Positions 2,653-29,355 of a stretch of 47,388 nucleotides of DNA are shown piece by piece. Numbering within the stretch: the first letter of the stretch is position 1; each line of letters begins with the position of its first letter. Origin of the DNA: Sphingomonas bacterium (lineage in GTDB: Bacteria > Pseudomonadota > Alphaproteobacteria > Sphingomonadales > Sphingomonadaceae). The notes beneath the pieces are model-generated. The model did not search any database. It was given only the letters and a program-made list of their open reading frames with translations, and was not told where the DNA came from. The stretch spans positions 1-47,388 of the forward strand of contig NZ_JAQGLK010000118.1 in NCBI RefSeq assembly GCF_028292925.1, written 5' to 3'. The position numbers were made by a program, and so were the translations under genes.

Positions 2653-4050
2653 CTAGAAGTGGATCGCCCGCCCGTACGCCGAGAGCACGCTCTCGTGCAT
2701 CATTTCGGACAGGGTGGGATGGGCGAAGATCGTCTGCATCAGCTCGGCCTCCGTCGTCTCCAGCTGGCGGGCGACGACATAGCCCTGGATCAGCTCGGTC
2801 ACTTCCGCACCCACCATGTGCGCGCCGAGCAGTTCGCCGGTCGTTTCGTCGAACACCGTCTTCACGAAGCCTTCGGCCTCGCCCAGCGCGATGGCCTTGC
2901 CGTTGCCGATGAAGGGGAACTTGCCGACCTTGACCTTGTGGCCCTTTTCCTTGGCGAGCGCCTCGGTCATGCCGACCGACGCCACCTGCGGGCGGGAATA
3001 GGTGCAGCCGGGGATGTTCCATTTCTCCATCGGGTGAACGCCCTTGTAGCCGGCGATCGCCTCCGCCGCGACGACGCCCTCGTGGCTGGCCTTGTGCGCC
3101 AGCCACGGCGCACCGGCGACATCGCCGATCGCCCAGATTCCTTCGACGTTGGTGCGGCCATAGGAATCGGTCAGGATCGTGCCGCGCTCGGACTTCACGC
3201 CCAGCCCCTCCAGCCCGATGTTTTCGGTGTTCGAGATGATGCCGATGGCGACGATGACGTGGCTGTAGTCGCCCGTGGTGACCTTGCCGTCCTTGCCCTT
3301 GATGCTGGCGGTGATCCCGTTCGCCGATTTGTCGATCTTCTCGACGCCGGAGCCGGTCAGGATCTTGATCCCCTGCTTGGTCAGCGCCTTCAGCATGAAG
3401 TCGGAAACTTCGGCGTCCTCGACGGGCAGGATCCGATCGAGCATCTCGACGATCGTCACGTCGGCGCCCATATCGTTGTAGAAGCTGGCGAATTCGACGC
3501 CGATCGCGCCCGATCCGATGACAAGCAGCTTGGTCGGCATCTCCTTGGGCGTCATCGCGTGGCGGTAGGTCCAGATCCGCTCGCCATCGGCCGGCGCGAA
3601 CGGCAGGTCCCGCGCACGCGCGCCGGTGGCGACGATGATGTCCTTTGCCTCCAGATCGGTCGACTTGTCGCCGTTCCTGACGGTCATCCGGCCCTTGGCG
3701 GTGATCGTGCCGAAGCCCTCGACCACGGTGATCTTGTTCTTCTTCATCAGCCCCTTGACGCCGGCATTGAGCTGCCCGGCCACCTTGCGACTGCGATCGA
3801 CTATCTTGGCCAGATCGAAGGAGACGTTGCCGGCGCTCAGCCCGTAGGCCTCGGCATGCTGCATGTAATGGTAGATTTCCGACGTGCGCAGCAGCGCCTT
3901 CGTCGGGATGCAGCCCCAGTTTAGGCAGATGCCGCCCAGCCGCTCGCGCTCGACGATGGCGGTCTTGAGCCCCAGCTGCGCGGCGCGGATCGCCGCGACA
4001 TAGCCGCCCGGGCCCGAGCCGAGGATGATGAGATCGTACGTGTCAGCCAT
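2653..4050 (-). CDS. lpdA: Dihydrolipoyl dehydrogenase (E3)
   Basis: FAD enzyme that reoxidises dihydrolipoamide in the 2-oxoacid dehydrogenase complexes with NAD+. It has the N-terminal FAD motif GSGPGGY, the redox-active disulfide GGICLNWGCIPTK, the NAD-binding GSGAIGVEFASF, the second FAD motif AIGDVAG and the C-terminal HPTLSEMMHE with the catalytic His-Glu pair. Length from MADTYDL is 465 residues, normal. I chose the ATG at 4050 over one seven codons upstream because GGGGAAGA precedes it and MADTYDLIILG is the usual start. Last gene of an E2-thioesterase-E3 run on the minus strand. Confidence 0.97.
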   Translation of the reverse strand: MADTYDLIILGSGPGGYVAAIRAAQLGLKTAIVERERLGGICLNWGCIPTKALLRTSEIYHYMQHAEAYGLSAGNVSFDLAKIVDRSRKVAGQLNAGVKGLMKKNKITVVEGFGTITAKGRMTVRNGDKSTDLEAKDIIVATGARARDLPFAPADGERIWTYRHAMTPKEMPTKLLVIGSGAIGVEFASFYNDMGADVTIVEMLDRILPVEDAEVSDFMLKALTKQGIKILTGSGVEKIDKSANGITASIKGKDGKVTTGDYSHVIVAIGIISNTENIGLEGLGVKSERGTILTDSYGRTNVEGIWAIGDVAGAPWLAHKASHEGVVAAEAIAGYKGVHPMEKWNIPGCTYSRPQVASVGMTEALAKEKGHKVKVGKFPFIGNGKAIALGEAEGFVKTVFDETTGELLGAHMVGAEVTELIQGYVVARQLETTEAELMQTIFAHPTLSEMMHESVLSAYGRAIHF

Positions 4051-4095
4051 TGCTCTTCCCCGTTCCGTCATGCCGCCGATGTCTGGATCGCGGGC

Positions 4096-4515
4096 TCAAG
4101 GATCAATATTGCCCGGCGTCTCCGGCATCGGCGGCACGCTGCGCTTCTGCCGGTCCTCGCCGATGGCGACGAAGGTGAATACTGCCTCGGTCACCTTCTC
4201 CGTGGTCTCGTCGTTGCGCGCCCGCCGCCATGCCTCGGACCGGACCCGCATCGATGTCCGCCCCACGCCGATCAGCCTGGCGTAGACCGAAACCTCGTCG
4301 CCGACCGAGACCGGCTTGTGAAACACCATCGCGTCCGCCGCCACCGTCACCGCGCGCCCCCGCGAATGCCGGGATGCGACCGACGAGGAGGCGAGGTCCA
4401 TCTGGCTCATCAGCCATCCGCCGAAGATGTCGCCATACGGGTTGGTATCCGCGGGCATCGCGGTCACGCGGATCGCCGGTGCCTGCGGGGGCGGTCTATC
4501 CGGCTCTTCGCTCAC
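4096..4515 (-). CDS. YciA-like acyl-CoA thioesterase
   Basis: Hotdog-fold thioesterase expected to hydrolyse acyl-CoA esters to free acid and CoA. Motifs fit the YciA/BACH group: NPYGDIFGGWLMSQMD (catalytic Asp in the GD.FGG.L..MD helix), followed by the VFHKPVSVGDEVSVYA strand and a final FTFVAIGED. About 139 residues, usual size. It lies between the E2 and E3 genes of pyruvate dehydrogenase with a 14-base gap after E2, so it is probably co-transcribed and might relieve acetyl-CoA or acyl-CoA build-up (inference). The start is uncertain: GTG at 4515 follows GGAGG with no spacer, and an in-frame GTG at 4560 would overlap E2. Confidence 0.85.
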   Translation of the reverse strand: MSEEPDRPPPQAPAIRVTAMPADTNPYGDIFGGWLMSQMDLASSSVASRHSRGRAVTVAADAMVFHKPVSVGDEVSVYARLIGVGRTSMRVRSEAWRRARNDETTEKVTEAVFTFVAIGEDRQKRSVPPMPETPGNIDP

Positions 4516-4529
4516 CCTCCGGTCCCGGT

Positions 4530-5840
4530 TCAGGCCAGCATGCCCAGCGGGTTCTCGCACAGTCGCTTGAACGCCTGCATCAGCTGGGCGCCGTCCGCGC
4601 CGTCGATCGCACGGTGATCGAAGCTGCCGGTGGCGGACATCACGGTCGCGATCTTCAGCTCGTCGCCGACGACATAGGGGCGCTTTTCGCCCGCGCCGAT
4701 CGCCATGATCATCGCCTGGGGCGGGTTGATCACCGCCTCGAACTGCTTGATCCCGTACATGCCCATGTTCGACAGGGACGCGGTGCCGCCGGCATATTCC
4801 TCGGGCTTCAGCTTACCCTCGCGGGCGCGGCCGGCCAGATCCTTGATCTCGGTCGCGATGCGGGAGAGGCTCTTCGATCCGGCATCGACCACGACCGGGG
4901 TGATAAGCCCGCCGGGGATCGACACCGCGACCGAGATATCGGCGCGCTTGAACTGGAGCAGCTGGTCGCCGGCATACTGGACGTTGCACACCGGCACCTC
5001 GACCAGCGCGACGGCAAGCGCCTTCACCAGCATGTCGTTGACCGACAGCTTGACGCCCCGGCTCTCCAGACCCTTGTTCAGATCGCCACGCAGCTTCAGC
5101 AGCGCATCCAGGTTGATATCCACCGTCAGGTAGATGTGCGGCACCTGCTGCTTGGATTCGGTAAGCCGCCGCGCGATCGTCTTGCGCATGTTCGACAGCT
5201 TCACCGCCTCGTGCGGGATGTCGGACGTGGCCGGCGTGCTTGCCGTCGGCGCCGCGGCGTTCGCCGGTGCGGCGGACGACGTGGCGGCCGGAGCAGCCGC
5301 AGCGGCCGCCTTGGCATTGGCGAGATCGGCGCGGACGATGCGGCCGTTCGGCCCCGATCCGCTGACACCCTTCAGATCCAGCCCCTGCTGGGCGGCCAGA
5401 CGGCGCGCGAGCGGGCTTGCCTTGATCCGGCTGCCGGGCGCGGCGGCGGCCGGGGCGGCAGGCGCCTGCGGTGCATTGGCCGGGCTTTTCGGCGGAACGG
5501 CGTCCGCCTGCGGCTTGGCGGCAGCGCCCTTCTCCGCGACGGGCGGCTCCTTGGCCTGCGTCGGGGCCACGCTCGCCGTCGCGGCGCTCGCATCCTCGTC
5601 TTCGCCCAGGATCAGCGCGATCACCGTGCCGACCTTCACGCCGTCGGTTCCCTCGGGAACGACGATGCGGCCGATGGTGCCTTCATCGACGGCCTCGAAC
5701 TCCATCGTCGCCTTGTCGGTCTCGATCTCGGCCAGCAGGTCGCCGGCGGCAACGGTATCGCCTTCCTTGACGAGCCACTTGGAGAGGGTTCCCTCCTCCA
5801 TCGTCGGTGAGAGCGCAGGCATCTTCAATTCGATCGGCAT
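4530..5840 (-). CDS. pdhC: Pyruvate dehydrogenase E2, dihydrolipoyl acetyltransferase
   Basis: E2 core of pyruvate dehydrogenase, transferring acetyl from lipoamide to CoA. Domain order: one lipoyl domain (residues 1-80, lipoyl Lys in ETDKATMEF), a long Ala/Pro linker, the peripheral-subunit-binding domain ([11 protein letters not shown] ... [13 protein letters not shown]), a second Ala-rich linker, and the catalytic domain with [11 protein letters not shown] near residue 409 (catalytic His and Asp). 436 residues from [10 protein letters not shown]. The ATG at 5840 has GGAGAGG eight bases upstream; an in-frame start 13 codons earlier lacks support. E1 alpha and beta genes are not adjacent, so they must lie elsewhere. 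Confidence 0.96.
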
Positions 5841-25016: not shown

Positions 25017-25886
25017 GTGAAGATCGAACGTGTGGACACGCGGCACTGCATGGTGGGCGAGGGCCCGCTGTGGGACGTTGCCGAACAGGCGCTCTACTAC
25101 ATCGATATCGTCGGCAAGGCCGTGCATCGCTTCGACCCGGCGGCCGGGGAGACGCGAAGCTGGGATGTCGGCCAGGTCATCGGCTCCATGGCCCTTCGCG
25201 AGCAGGGGGGGGCGATCGTCGCGCTGAAGGATGGCATCTTCACCCTCGATCTCGACAGCGGCGACACGGCACTGCTTGCCCCTGCCAGGCATCTGAACCC
25301 GCGCGCGCAGATGAACGACGGCAAGGTCGATCGGCGGGGCCGGTTCGTGGTCGGATCGGGGGATTCCGACATTCGCGAGTGCCGCCCCTACGGATCGCTT
25401 TACCGGCTCGACGGGGATCATTCGCTGCACGAGCTGGATCGGGAGATCGCGATCAGCAACGGCCCGTGCTGGTCTCCCGACAACAAGACGCTCTATTTCT
25501 CCGATAGCCTGCCCTGCCACATCTATGCCTACGATTATGACATCGAAACTGGCGCGGTTGCGAACAAGCGGCTGTTCGCCGACACGACCGATCTGGGCGG
25601 CATTCCGGATGGCGCAACTGTCGACAGCGACGGATTGATGTGGATGGCGATATGCGAAGGCGCCAAGATCGTCGCCTACACGCCGCACGGCACGATCGAG
25701 CGGGTGATCGACATGCCCGTCACGCTCCCGGCGAGCGTCATGTTCGGCGGGCCGGACCTCGACCAGCTCTACGTCACCTCGATCGATCCCCGGCTGCTCG
25801 GGCGTGATCCGGACGGTGGCGGCGACACGTTCGTGATCACCGGGCTCGGCGCTCGCGGTATCGCGGAGTCACGTTATGCCGGCTGA
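25017..25886 (+). CDS. SMP-30/gluconolactonase-family lactonase
   Basis: Six-bladed propeller enzyme of 289 residues that would open a lactone with a divalent metal. Metal ligands align with human SMP30 E18/N154/D204: E15 in GEGPLWD, N148 in ISNGPCWSPD and D198 in IPDGATVD; N100 is the substrate Asn. The GTG start at 25017 follows GGGGAGGGTG. No signal peptide, so cytosolic. First gene of a run whose genes overlap. In this context the lactone may come from aromatic side-chain or lignan breakdown, but that is a guess. Confidence 0.88.
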   Translation: MKIERVDTRHCMVGEGPLWDVAEQALYYIDIVGKAVHRFDPAAGETRSWDVGQVIGSMALREQGGAIVALKDGIFTLDLDSGDTALLAPARHLNPRAQMNDGKVDRRGRFVVGSGDSDIRECRPYGSLYRLDGDHSLHELDREIAISNGPCWSPDNKTLYFSDSLPCHIYAYDYDIETGAVANKRLFADTTDLGGIPDGATVDSDGLMWMAICEGAKIVAYTPHGTIERVIDMPVTLPASVMFGGPDLDQLYVTSIDPRLLGRDPDGGGDTFVITGLGARGIAESRYAG

Positions 25887-27096
25887 GGCCGCGCCGCCCG
25901 GCCTGCCCACGCACGCGCTGCTCCTGATTCTGGTCATCGTCTTCGTCAACTTCGCAGGCTTCAGCCTGATCATTCCGCTACTCCCGTTCTACGGCCGCGT
26001 GCTTCAGGCGAGCCCCCTCGAGATCACCCTGCTTTTCGCCGCTTATTCGTTCGGCGGCGTCTTCGGCGAGATCTGGTGGGGCCGCACGTCGGATCGGTAC
26101 GGGAGGCGCAAGGTGTTGATCGGCGCGACTGCGGCGACGGCGCTCAGCTACCTCGCCTTCGCCTTCGTCCCTAATCTGGGTGCGGCGCTGGCGATCCGCG
26201 TTCTGACGGGCTTCTTCAGCGGCACGGTCGGCGTCTGCCAGAGCTACATCGCCGACGTGACGCGGCCGGAGGAGCGGGCGCGCAGCATCGGCCTGCTCGG
26301 TGCCGCGCTCAACCTCGGCTTCGCGGTCGGCCCTGCCATCGGCGGCCTGCTCGCCTCGCCCGATCAGGGCCTCGCCGGATTCCGCCTGCCGATCCTCGCC
26401 TCTGCGGGGGTGGCGGCGGCGGCGGCGCTGTGGAGCACCTTCGTGCTCGTCGAAAGCCACCCGCCCGGCATCGCACGCCCCCTGCCCCGCTGGGGTGAGG
26501 CGGTGCGGTTCGTGACGACGGATCAGCTGCTGGTGCGGTTGTTCGCCATCGCATTCATCGGCATCGGCGCCTTCGCCTCCATGGAAGCGGTGTTCGGGCT
26601 GTGGACGGCGCTCAACTTCGGCTGGTCGACACATGAGGTGGGCCTCAGCTTCATCGCCGTGGGCCTCAGCGGCTTCGTGGTGCAGATCCTGCTGATCGGG
26701 CGGGCAACGCGCGCGTTCGGCGAGGCGCGGGTGATCGTCGGCGGGCTGAGCGTGCTCGCGCTGAGCATGCTGCTTCAGCCGATGCTGCGCGATCCGATTG
26801 CCGCGGTCGTGTTGATGTCCGCGCTGATGGCCGGCCACAGCATCGCCTTTCCCAGTGCGGGGGCGCTGATTTCGCGCTCGATCAGTGCGGACGTTCAGGG
26901 CAGCGTCAACGGCCTGCTGATGGCGAGCAACGCTCTTGGCCGGATCGTCGTGCCGCCTGCGTTCGGCTTGATCTACGCCGTCGGTGGGCCGGATGCGCCT
27001 TATTATATCGGCGCTGCGCTGGTCGGCGTGGCGATCCTCATCGGCTGGCAGGTGGTGACGATCCGCGATGCCCGATCCAAGGTGGTGGCAGCATGA
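25876..27096 (+). CDS. MFS transporter, TetA-like (DHA1)
   Basis: Twelve-helix major facilitator, 406 residues. The motif after helix 2, GRTSDRYGRRKVL, is the MFS motif A; PSAGALISRSISADVQGSVNGLL is like the helix-10/11 loop of TetA proteins. Proton-coupled antiport is the usual mode for this group, which would mean export of a phenolic or a drug, but uptake cannot be ruled out. It starts inside the lactonase gene (11-base overlap) and ends with an ATGA overlap into the flavoprotein, so it is part of the operon. Neighbouring a TetR-like regulator and a tetO-like site, the pairing echoes tetR/tetA. Confidence 0.87.
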   Translation: MPAEAAPPGLPTHALLLILVIVFVNFAGFSLIIPLLPFYGRVLQASPLEITLLFAAYSFGGVFGEIWWGRTSDRYGRRKVLIGATAATALSYLAFAFVPNLGAALAIRVLTGFFSGTVGVCQSYIADVTRPEERARSIGLLGAALNLGFAVGPAIGGLLASPDQGLAGFRLPILASAGVAAAAALWSTFVLVESHPPGIARPLPRWGEAVRFVTTDQLLVRLFAIAFIGIGAFASMEAVFGLWTALNFGWSTHEVGLSFIAVGLSGFVVQILLIGRATRAFGEARVIVGGLSVLALSMLLQPMLRDPIAAVVLMSALMAGHSIAFPSAGALISRSISADVQGSVNGLLMASNALGRIVVPPAFGLIYAVGGPDAPYYIGAALVGVAILIGWQVVTIRDARSKVVAA

Positions 27097-28640
27097 CGAC
27101 GCACGGGATCGATCCGGCCGCGCTTGCAGCGGCGCTGCGCGACTTCCGCTCGGCGGTCGGCGCGGCCAACGTGTTCGACGGCGAGGAGGACCGGCTCGCC
27201 TATTCGGACCATTATTCGCCCGACGAGACGCGGCACATGCCGGGCGCGGCGGTCGCTCCGTCCAGCGTTGAGGAGGTGCAGGCGATCGTCCGCATCGCCA
27301 ATCGCCACAAGGTGCCGCTGTGGCCGATCAGCCGCGGCAAGAATTTCGGCTATGGCGGCGCGGCGCCGGTGCTCAAGGGTTCGGTCGTCCTCGATCTCAG
27401 CCGCATGAAGCGGATCGAGGTGGATCGCGAGAACGGCACCGTCCTGGTCGAGCCCGGCGTCGGCTTCTTCGACCTTTACGACCATCTCCAGAAGAACGGT
27501 ATTCCGCTGTGGCTGTCGGTGCCCGGCAACAGCTGGGGCTCGGTCGCCGGCAACGCGCTCGACCGTGGCGTCGGCTACACCAGTTATGGCGATCATGCCG
27601 CGCGCATCTGCGGGCTGGAGGTTGTCCTGCCGGAGGGTGGGCTGGTCCGCACCGGCATGGGGGCGATGCAAGGATCGTCCACCTGGCAGCTCTACCGCAA
27701 TGGCTATGGCCCCGGCTGGGATACGATGTTCTGCCAGTCGAACTTCGGCATCGTCACCAAGCTCGGGCTGTGGCTGATGCCGGAGCCCGAGACGGTGCTG
27801 GGGCTGGATTTCGAGTTCGACAAGCCGGACGATCTCGGCTGGGCCATCGACACGATCATGCCGCTTCGCCGCGAGGGCGTCATTCAGCAGTCCCCCTCGA
27901 TGGGCAACTGGCTGCGCTCGGCCGCGGTGATGACGACGCGCGAGCAGTGGACCAAGGACAAGGGGCCACTGGACGAGAAGGTTGTCACCGCGATCCGCAA
28001 GCAGTTCAACATCGGCTGGTGGAGCGTGCAGGTGCGCTTCTTCGGGCCAGCGGAGATCACGGAGGCCTCGATGAAGGTGCTGCGCCGCGCCTTCGACAAG
28101 AAGCCCGTGCTCGCGATCAAGGAAGCGCGGTGGAAGCGGGGCGACCCGCCGGAGGGGTCGCCCTCAAGCGGCGTGCCGGTCAGCTTCCCGCTGGCCAATG
28201 CCAACTGGCACGGCGGCCGCGGCGGCCACACCGGCTATTCGCCCGTGCTGCCGCCCCGCGGCGACCTCGCCATGGACCAGTTCCGGCGAACCTACGATCT
28301 GTACGCCAAATTCGGCATGGATTATCATGCCAGCTTCGCCATGGGCGATCGCAGCCTCACCAACGTCAACCAGATCCTGTTCGACCGGGACGATCCGGAA
28401 ATGATGCGGCGCGTCGACGGGTTTTTCCGCGCGCTGGTGGCCGACGCAAAAGCCAAGGGTTATGGCGAGTACCGGACCCATATCGAGTATATGGATCTGG
28501 TCGCCCAGACCTATGATTATGGCGGCCACGCGCTGCTCCGTCTCAATGAGCGGGTGAAGGATGCGCTCGATCCGAACGGCATCGTCGCCCCGGGGAAGAG
28601 CGGCATCTGGCCGGCGCGTTACCGGGAGAAGAAAGCGTGA
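27093..28640 (+). CDS. VAO/4-cresol dehydrogenase-family flavoprotein (copy 2)
   Basis: 515 residues, clearly paralogous to the protein at 22.8-24.3 kb over its whole length. WPISRGKNFGYGG and VPGNSWGSVAGNALDRGVGYTSYGDH mark the FAD-binding domain; Y87, Y460 and R461 form the phenolate pocket of the family; H379 in GGRGGHTGYSP is the expected FAD-attachment residue. Directly followed, with overlap, by a c-type cytochrome, the arrangement of 4-cresol dehydrogenase (PchF/PchC), eugenol hydroxylase and pinoresinol hydroxylase. So it likely hydroxylates a para-alkylphenol through a quinone methide with water as oxygen source and passes electrons to the cytochrome. No own signal peptide. Confidence 0.88.
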   Translation: MTTHGIDPAALAAALRDFRSAVGAANVFDGEEDRLAYSDHYSPDETRHMPGAAVAPSSVEEVQAIVRIANRHKVPLWPISRGKNFGYGGAAPVLKGSVVLDLSRMKRIEVDRENGTVLVEPGVGFFDLYDHLQKNGIPLWLSVPGNSWGSVAGNALDRGVGYTSYGDHAARICGLEVVLPEGGLVRTGMGAMQGSSTWQLYRNGYGPGWDTMFCQSNFGIVTKLGLWLMPEPETVLGLDFEFDKPDDLGWAIDTIMPLRREGVIQQSPSMGNWLRSAAVMTTREQWTKDKGPLDEKVVTAIRKQFNIGWWSVQVRFFGPAEITEASMKVLRRAFDKKPVLAIKEARWKRGDPPEGSPSSGVPVSFPLANANWHGGRGGHTGYSPVLPPRGDLAMDQFRRTYDLYAKFGMDYHASFAMGDRSLTNVNQILFDRDDPEMMRRVDGFFRALVADAKAKGYGEYRTHIEYMDLVAQTYDYGGHALLRLNERVKDALDPNGIVAPGKSGIWPARYREKKA

Positions 28641-29014
28641 AGCAGCTCGCTTCGTTCGCAGCCATGGCGTTGTTCGTCGGCGGCGGCGCGCTCGCGCAGG
28701 GGCAGCCGGGCACCGAGATCAAGAACGCCGCGCGCGGTGGCTTGCAGGATCGTTCGGCCCGATCTGCGCCCGAGGCGCTGTTCGTCGAGAAGTGCGGCAT
28801 GTGCCACCGCCAGATGGGCATGGGCACCGTGATCCTGGCCCGCCGGATGCCACCCGCCCTCGCCATGCTCGAGCAGCGCAACGACCTTACCGTCGATTAT
28901 GTGAAGGAAGCCGCGCGATCGGGCATCGGCAACATGCCCCGTATCCAGCGCGGCGAGGTCAGCGACGCGCAGCTCGCGGAGATCGGGCGATACCTGGCGA
29001 AAGGCAGGCCATGA
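28637..29014 (+). CDS. c-type cytochrome subunit of the flavocytochrome
   Basis: 125-residue monohaem cytochrome with a signal peptide (first about 20 residues ending ALAQ). Haem site C53-G-M-C56-H57, and M100 in GIGNMPRIQ is a good axial Met. It begins at GTG 28637 with a 4-base overlap with the flavoprotein, like PchC beside PchF. Expected to accept electrons from the flavin and hand them to the periplasmic respiratory chain. How a flavoprotein without a signal peptide joins it in the periplasm is the same puzzle as in the known family members. Confidence 0.9.
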   Translation: MKQLASFAAMALFVGGGALAQGQPGTEIKNAARGGLQDRSARSAPEALFVEKCGMCHRQMGMGTVILARRMPPALAMLEQRNDLTVDYVKEAARSGIGNMPRIQRGEVSDAQLAEIGRYLAKGRP

Positions 29015-29355
29015 TCAGCCGGCGGGGAGTGATAGCGGGCGGCACGGTTGCCGGAGCGGCGAGTTTGCTGCCTTTGCCGCTGCTGGCGCAGGGCACGGCG
29101 CGGCTCCTGCTCGTCGACGGCAGTCTTGCCGCTGCCGATCGCATGCAGGTGCCGGCAGGAGGGGTGCACCTGGAGCCGGAACTGGTGGCGCAATGGCGCC
29201 GCGTTCTGCGCCAACGCTTCCTGGATGGCGAGCGAGGGATCGCGCTGGTGCGTTGGGACAAGGCGCTGCTGCTCTCCGGCCTCGCCCGCGAGGACAGGCT
29301 TGCCGTGCGGCAACGGCGGCTCGGCCGCTCGCTGTTCGCCGTCGAGATCGGGTGA
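29011..29355 (+). CDS. Small Tat-signal protein of unknown function
   Basis: 114 residues. The N-terminus MISRRGVIAGG followed by a hydrophobic stretch ending LPLLAQ is a twin-arginine signal. The mature part, about 88 residues, is Arg- and Leu-rich (VAQWRRVLRQRFLDGERGIALVRWDKALLL) with no cysteines and no family I recognise. ATGA overlap with the cytochrome gene ties it to the flavocytochrome. A Tat substrate is folded in the cytoplasm, so this could escort the FAD-loaded flavoprotein, or be an assembly factor. Position recalls the uncharacterised pchX in the 4-cresol cluster; no homology is claimed. Confidence 0.75.
   Translation: MISRRGVIAGGTVAGAASLLPLPLLAQGTARLLLVDGSLAAADRMQVPAGGVHLEPELVAQWRRVLRQRFLDGERGIALVRWDKALLLSGLAREDRLAVRQRRLGRSLFAVEIG

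Follow-up and report, generated by a model that had tools for sequence, protein, structure and literature searches.

p-Cresol methylhydroxylase (PCMH) is the textbook periplasmic flavocytochrome. To our knowledge, its crystal structures contain no third subunit, and the enzyme purifies and crystallises without the protein described below. The ORF between pchC and pchF in the P. putida PCMH operon is, we take it, pchX, named long ago with no function given. In Streptomyces, tyrosinase is a signal-less metalloenzyme with a small partner, the Tat-signalled caddie MelC1, and the carrier of the E. coli PaoABC enzyme is an iron-sulphur redox subunit. PaoABC is described as a Tat hitch-hiker complex in which one subunit carries the signal for its signal-less partners (PMC4273604, partial text). 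Likewise, in FAD-glucose dehydrogenase (GDH) the gamma subunit, which bears a Tat signal, is described as the hitch-hiker needed for folding and secretion; it has five alpha-helices and stays bound to the catalytic subunit (PMC6719666, partial text). For BpfAB, the flavoprotein is supposed to be guided across by the signal of the cytochrome, in a source that also cites the periplasmic site of P. putida PCMH and whose passages considered here do not mention a Tat-signal ORF after the cytochrome (PMC12724174, partial text). Among the literature matches listed, mostly without subscription papers, none assigned a Tat carrier to PCMH-type enzymes.

A PchF-type operon encodes a predicted twin-arginine protein

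The window, i.e. the whole 47,388-nucleotide stretch of Sphingomonas DNA that we analysed, contains a flavocytochrome operon ending in a small gene, here called X (Table 1). Its flavoprotein, P0003, belongs to the VAO/PCMH family (match to 1WVE, E 1e-108; bacterial oxidase-type entries score higher), and the only match of its cytochrome, P0002, is the PCMH cytochrome chain 1dii_C (E 0.0011). A VAO/PCMH flavoprotein thus adjoins a small c-type cytochrome, as in PCMH/4-cresol dehydrogenase flavocytochromes. The genes run in the order SMP-30-like, MFS transporter, P0003, P0002 and X, and every neighbouring pair overlaps, which is why we place the SMP-30-like and MFS genes in the same operon as P0003. 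The GTG start of the cytochrome gene (28637) overlaps the stop of P0003 (28638-28640) in the same way as the start of X (ATG 29011-29013) overlaps the cytochrome stop (TGA 29012-29014). The earlier note had read X as a Tat-signal ORF coupled by ATGA to the cytochrome gene; its coordinates were exact, and the gene, on the + strand, belongs to a conserved family. The note had also spoken of signal-less flavoproteins with a periplasmic cytochrome partner. Both P0003 and P0004 indeed lack a signal, but only P0003 is part of the cytochrome/X operon. In the flavoprotein tree P0004 groups with three similar lone genes in a four-row clade, and it is perhaps a cytoplasmic oxidase.

Table 1 Features of the operon and its surroundings in the window.
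Feature	Position	Strand	Basis or remark
Gene X, small twin-arginine-signal protein, 114 aa	29011..29355 (stop included)	+	ORF call, conserved family
ATGA overlap of X start and cytochrome stop	29011..29014	+	Sequence reading
Predicted Tat signal peptide of X (SRRGVI...)	29011..29088	+	Weak Tat-model matches; low structure-model confidence over most of residues 1-21
Mature alpha/beta domain of X (b-a-b-a-b-b), family core with D36, R81, E94	29104..29352	+	Alignment, structure model
Cytochrome c subunit P0002, PchC-like, CGMCH, N-terminal export signal by eye	28637..29014	+	
PchF-type FAD flavoprotein P0003, without signal peptide, proposed cargo	27093..28640	+	
SMP-30/gluconolactonase-like gene and MFS transporter gene	25017..27096	+	Overlap each other and the P0003 gene
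Second PchF-type flavoprotein P0004	22797..24350	-	Without signal, own cytochrome or X

The protein of gene X (P0001) begins MISRRGVIAGGTVAGAASLLPLPLLAQG, its start reading MISRRGVIAGG.... Both Pfam TAT_signal (E 0.0039) and TIGR01409 (E 0.031) match it under the model cut-off, so that the signal on its own is a borderline call. Comparison across the family decides for a Tat signal, which we accept because of the in-frame conservation, the constant position and the signals of the other members. X is conserved in frame at the same place (45% identity to its counterpart in L032, from Sphingobium xanthum NL9, and 48% in L038), and 68 of the 117 family members start with the 4-nt overlap with the cytochrome stop. 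The candidate Tat-like ORFs for family building were chosen by an [RK]R rule, which makes the RR/KR share among them uninformative; a profile of the mature part only is the fairer test. A signal lies upstream of its match in 117 of 119 distinct hits (113 twin-Arg RR, 4 Lys-Arg KR), and 81 of the 83 hits from loci that did not feed the profile have an RR/KR signal. A Tat-like ORF starts no more than 600 nt downstream of the flavoprotein gene in 100/176 loci, compared to 29/1288 random anchors. With its twin-arginine motif, its uncharged hydrophobic core and a TatC gene in the same genome (242 bits), X has the sequence features expected of a Tat-exported protein.

X belongs to a family that adjoins PCMH-type flavoprotein genes

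A plain search of 397 genomes with P0001 found, outside its own genome, two strong true relatives and a weak one that was later confirmed; the X family comes to light only via gene neighbourhood and profiles. Scanning 84,980 species genomes with P0003 yielded 20 loci, in 17 of which a small twin-arginine-signal ORF follows the flavoprotein and cytochrome genes, usually overlapping the latter (exceptions: L033, L035 at a contig end, and the distant L051). Iterated profiles seeded with X of the window united 117 of 168 adjacent Tat-like candidates in one family, and the mature-part profile A3, built from 36 mature parts, hit the locus of 118 of the 124 flavoprotein genes labelled as having X. 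In the six divergent loci (L082, L087, L090, L092, L232 and L237) it left the adjacent Tat-signal ORF unmatched, and kinship to X is argued there from place and signal, because the family profile misses the ORF. Seven X labels had been set by eye (L082, L087, L092, L232, L237, L240 and L049); of these, the mature-domain profile later picked up L049 and L240 and missed the other five, while the ORF of L090 had been taken in by an earlier profile. L082 is a S. yanoikuyae cluster similar to the bisphenol F cluster; its 189-aa Tat-signal ORF (L082:4940-5509) comes directly after the cytochrome gene.

In Sphingomonadales, in Roseomonas and in Caballeronia with its relatives, members of the family adjoin PchF/PCMH-type flavoprotein genes. 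Plasmid-borne X-like genes annotated as "hypothetical protein" occur in Sphingobium yanoikuyae, Paraburkholderia, N. aromaticivorans (pNL1 and pNL2), Roseomonas, Massilia, Rhizobium daejeonense, S. fuliginis and N. pentaromativorans, and the counterpart on a Sulfuricurvum plasmid is annotated as a twin-arginine signal protein. At the pNL1 locus of N. aromaticivorans DSM 12444 (L089), X is a family member with no cytochrome gene beside it. The Sulfuricurvum protein aligns with the X profile at the expected core, albeit weakly (hhalign P 0.027, probability 1.8%), and kinship to X is unproven for this ORF and that of L237. For four plasmid relatives (two Rhodococcus, Corynebacterium and R. leguminosarum), the annotation shows neither a cytochrome c nor a small Tat-signal neighbour up to 3 kb away. 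In L169 (about 5150-5520) and L193 (about 5200-5585) X lies on the opposite strand, divergent from the flavoprotein gene; its adjacency thus survives a change of orientation. Newly examined X genes adjoined further flavoproteins at six places (L289-L294) and did not at two (L287, L288). One of these is an orphan paralogue in the genome of the window (L287:4752-5135, contig C10), with the Lys-Arg signal MNKRDFLKASG...; it sits just after an apparent ribosomal protein S1 gene, with no flavoprotein in the 10 kb around, and L288 is its counterpart in a congener.

A Pfam and NCBIfam scan of 40 members returned no named family beyond single-member matches, apart from Tat-signal models (15 members in Pfam, 8 in NCBIfam). 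The strongest non-Tat match, to a rifamycin glycosyltransferase model in one member (E 9.9e-7), was put down to chance or shared composition. In this sense X is unrecognised, as the earlier note had it; yet an ORF in the same slot of the classical operon, presumably pchX, already has a name, though no function.

X was found at 42-99 bits in 18 of the 24 genomes of a profile search. In the other six genomes all paralogues are self-signalled (G118) or cytochrome-less, as judged by a flavoprotein scan scoring at most three candidates per genome. In 80 Sphingomonadaceae taken as flavoprotein-free because they are not among the 61 positives of that scan, which names only 20 of its negatives, no convincing X appeared, only six weak matches, none above 21 bits, with up to 55 candidates scored in each genome.

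Most cytochrome-linked flavoproteins have either X or their own signal

The set drew on the window, 20 named loci, 12 plasmid stretches and 140 genome stretches, some near-duplicate genomes included, and came to 186 PchF-type genes, of which we counted 172 after setting 14 truncated genes aside. The pinoresinol flavocytochrome PinVW (PMC12607616, partial text) was considered as additional genetic evidence and left out of it. Among those with an adjacent cytochrome gene, 98 had X or an equivalent Tat-signal ORF (six of them unmatched by the mature-domain profile), 12 had a Tat signal of their own and 6 had neither; without a cytochrome the numbers were 29, 1 and 26. No flavoprotein gene among the 172 had both. 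One or the other was present in 110 of 116 cytochrome-linked genes. The earlier note had proposed looking for X beside other PchF homologues and named its absence from all related clusters as the outcome that would speak against a carrier; instead, X or its equivalent adjoins 98 of the 116. A further check, which the note had not foreseen, came from the other 18, of which 12 are self-signalled, not as one clade, and none has both.

These figures include four amendments to a first tally (with cytochrome: X 95, own signal 12, neither 8; without: 29, 1 and 27), namely the divergent X genes of L169 and L193, an X gene just past the distance limit in L259, and the cytochrome of L049, where the flavoprotein frame is broken and both cytochrome and X adjoin. 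Own-signal calls in L127, L129 and L130 were discarded, since there the motif is part of the conserved domain. At 95% non-redundancy, with untruncated genes and the amendments applied (L049 outside the set), the counts are 81, 12 and 4 with a cytochrome and 25, 1 and 25 without; before amendment they were 79, 12 and 6, and 24, 1 and 26.

The six cytochrome-linked genes with no local X or own signal (L033, L121, L124, L125, L137 and L158) belong to five genomes, each with an X gene at another place, and it is possible that X is supplied to these flavoproteins in trans. Of the 29 X genes beside flavoproteins without an adjacent cytochrome, 22 come from a single Caballeronia-like clade (L085, L239-L257, L259 and L260). 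In family f71 (L239-L260), taken for Burkholderiaceae since its flavoproteins group with one from Caballeronia, X mostly lies directly downstream of the flavoprotein gene with no cytochrome nearby; these enzymes must pass their electrons to an acceptor of another kind or one with its gene at a distance. Flavoproteins with neither X nor signal fall mainly into a 16-row clade and the four-row clade of P0004, have no adjacent cytochrome and are probably cytoplasmic oxidase-type enzymes.

Signal scoring gave the same picture at the protein level. A signal-like core was present in all 13 self-signalled flavoproteins, one of which is the ES2-1 protein in L088, compared to 18 of 122 X-type flavoproteins, where by eye it corresponded to a conserved N-terminal helix or upstream starts; the remaining 104 of the 122 with a start had none.

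In a FastTree phylogeny of 148 flavoproteins, the own-signal state requires at least two changes, one for a clade of 12 and one for L123, which groups, by a long branch, with genes that have X beside them. The same came from a mixture-model tree of 32 rows, among them 10 of the 13 self-signalled ones, and the AU test on these rejects a single self-signalled clade (p 2e-17). The self-signalled groups nevertheless amount to about two evolutionary changes only, of either direction. L123 lies in the genome of the window (contig C26, flavoprotein about 3400 to 5007) and begins with its own Tat signal, MLTRRDFVWASSAAAAL...; it has a cytochrome and no X, in contrast to the window operon within one genome.

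X is a candidate Tat carrier for the flavoprotein

We propose, with a probability of roughly three in four, that X is a dedicated Tat carrier, a hitch-hiker partner that takes the signal-less, FAD-loaded PCMH-type flavoprotein to the periplasm. The flavoprotein, which has no export signal, would fold and take up FAD in the cytoplasm, where the small folded X would bind it. The twin-arginine signal of X would then take the pair through TatABC and be cleaved, probably after LLA, with X leaving or staying in a minor role, and the holo-flavoprotein would meet in the periplasm the cytochrome c, which has a signal of its own. Self-signalled flavoproteins have no X gene beside them and, on this reading, can do without one. 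The pattern is that expected of a hitch-hiker: the putative cargo lacks a signal, X is encoded with it (98/116), and X is missing where the cargo is self-signalled (12 cytochrome-linked cases, 13 in all). We place the flavoprotein in the periplasm because of the cytochrome signal and the location of P. putida PCMH (cited in PMC12724174, partial text). The carrier idea of the earlier note, which began as a guess, is now well supported by comparative sequence evidence.

The main competitor, an improbable one in our estimate, is that X is exported by Tat on its own and acts in the periplasm as an assembly factor joining flavoprotein and cytochrome, the flavoprotein crossing by another route such as the cytochrome signal, as supposed for BpfAB (PMC12724174, partial text). 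All 95 cytochromes of X-type loci have a signal-like core, and in a comparison of trees from 74 operons over all distances X is tied more to the cytochrome (partial r 0.48) than to the flavoprotein (0.09). The same holds with ranks (0.36 vs 0.06), with logarithms (0.37 vs 0.21) and without the 15% most divergent X (0.48 vs 0.08). For close flavoprotein pairs the order reverses, X-flavoprotein values being 0.44, 0.63 and 0.44 against -0.04, 0.16 and 0.26 for X-cytochrome (limits 0.6, 1.0 and 1.5), and we let the comparison decide for neither partner. An assembly factor does not predict that X is absent just where the flavoprotein has a Tat signal. In its occurrence X goes with the flavoprotein, not the cytochrome: 29 X genes stand beside flavoproteins that have no cytochrome gene next to them, and the 12 self-signalled cytochrome loci lack X, which favours the flavoprotein as cargo. 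Finally, a folded, FAD-loaded subunit is not expected to cross on a Sec signal.

The structure model bears on another alternative. It is confident from residue 31 on (ten-residue means 85-98; signal part low) and predicts a mature alpha/beta domain of about 85 residues in the order b-a-b-a-b-b. Foldseek returned no match at E 0.001 or better. The best VIA-align hit was a SirA-like protein (Z 7.2), with IF3-C and Alba within 1, a common arrangement to which we attach no functional meaning. Such a confidently modelled domain would suit a stable third periplasmic subunit of the flavocytochrome, for example an anchor or electron-transfer helper that also gives the signal, and GDH gamma does remain bound to its catalytic subunit (PMC6719666, partial text). 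The family alignment shows no conserved Cys or His that could hold a cofactor, and self-signalled enzymes do without X. PCMH, as far as we know, was purified and crystallised without it, and we regard this reading as less probable still. That X instead serves periplasmic substrate handling or sensing, its place in the operon being unrelated to export, fits catabolic operons, some of which also hold transporters and regulators, but is very improbable given that, in different catabolic settings, X is present or absent according to whether the flavoprotein has its own signal.

For X as a Tat carrier, we hold a wider picture to be somewhat more probable than not. X and its equivalents would form an undescribed Tat-carrier family, with a fold unlike known hitch-hikers, whose cargo is the PCMH-type flavoproteins of Proteobacteria, that of the classical p-cresol methylhydroxylase among them; separate carrier and grafted signal would have been swapped more than once, and several flavocytochromes may share a carrier in trans. 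With a candidate carrier gene, the export of the signal-less PCMH flavoprotein becomes open to direct test. For the expression of cresol- and bisphenol-F-oxidising flavocytochromes X is a third gene worth trying, and separate carriers and built-in signals offer natural contrasts for studying how Tat partners bind.

Comparison with known systems

In L237 the flavoprotein is identical to P. putida PCMH (1WVE) at 383 of 506 positions (76%). The operon consists of a cytochrome with an N-terminal signal, a Tat-signal ORF (L237:5100-5612) beginning MQTDRRSLLKGLAAAGL, and the flavoprotein, so that the ORF sits in what is presumably the pchX slot. Unlike X, it falls outside the X profile, and its likeness to pchX is one of position only.

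Like MelC1, X is small, Tat-signalled and encoded beside a signal-less enzyme; the cargo differs. We do not count X as a MelC1 member, since the match of the X profile to MelC chains is confined to profile positions 2-33, the signal; the NCBIfam MelC1 model hits one of 40 X members (E 0.0012). Unlike the PaoABC carrier, X is without an evident cofactor.

A precedent is the gamma subunit of Burkholderia cepacia GDH, which is likewise small and Tat-signalled and goes with an FAD subunit, the cytochrome c of GDH having three haems (PMC6719666, partial text). The gluconate/glucose dehydrogenase gamma Pfam family matched none of the 40 X members at E 0.1. That gamma subunit, of the kind known from FAD-dependent glucose, gluconate and fructose dehydrogenase complexes, has five helices and serves a GMC flavoprotein (PMC6719666, partial text), whereas X is modelled as alpha/beta and stands beside VAO/PCMH flavoproteins. 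If X is a hitch-hiker, it therefore looks like a different invention from the five-helix partner reported for GDH.
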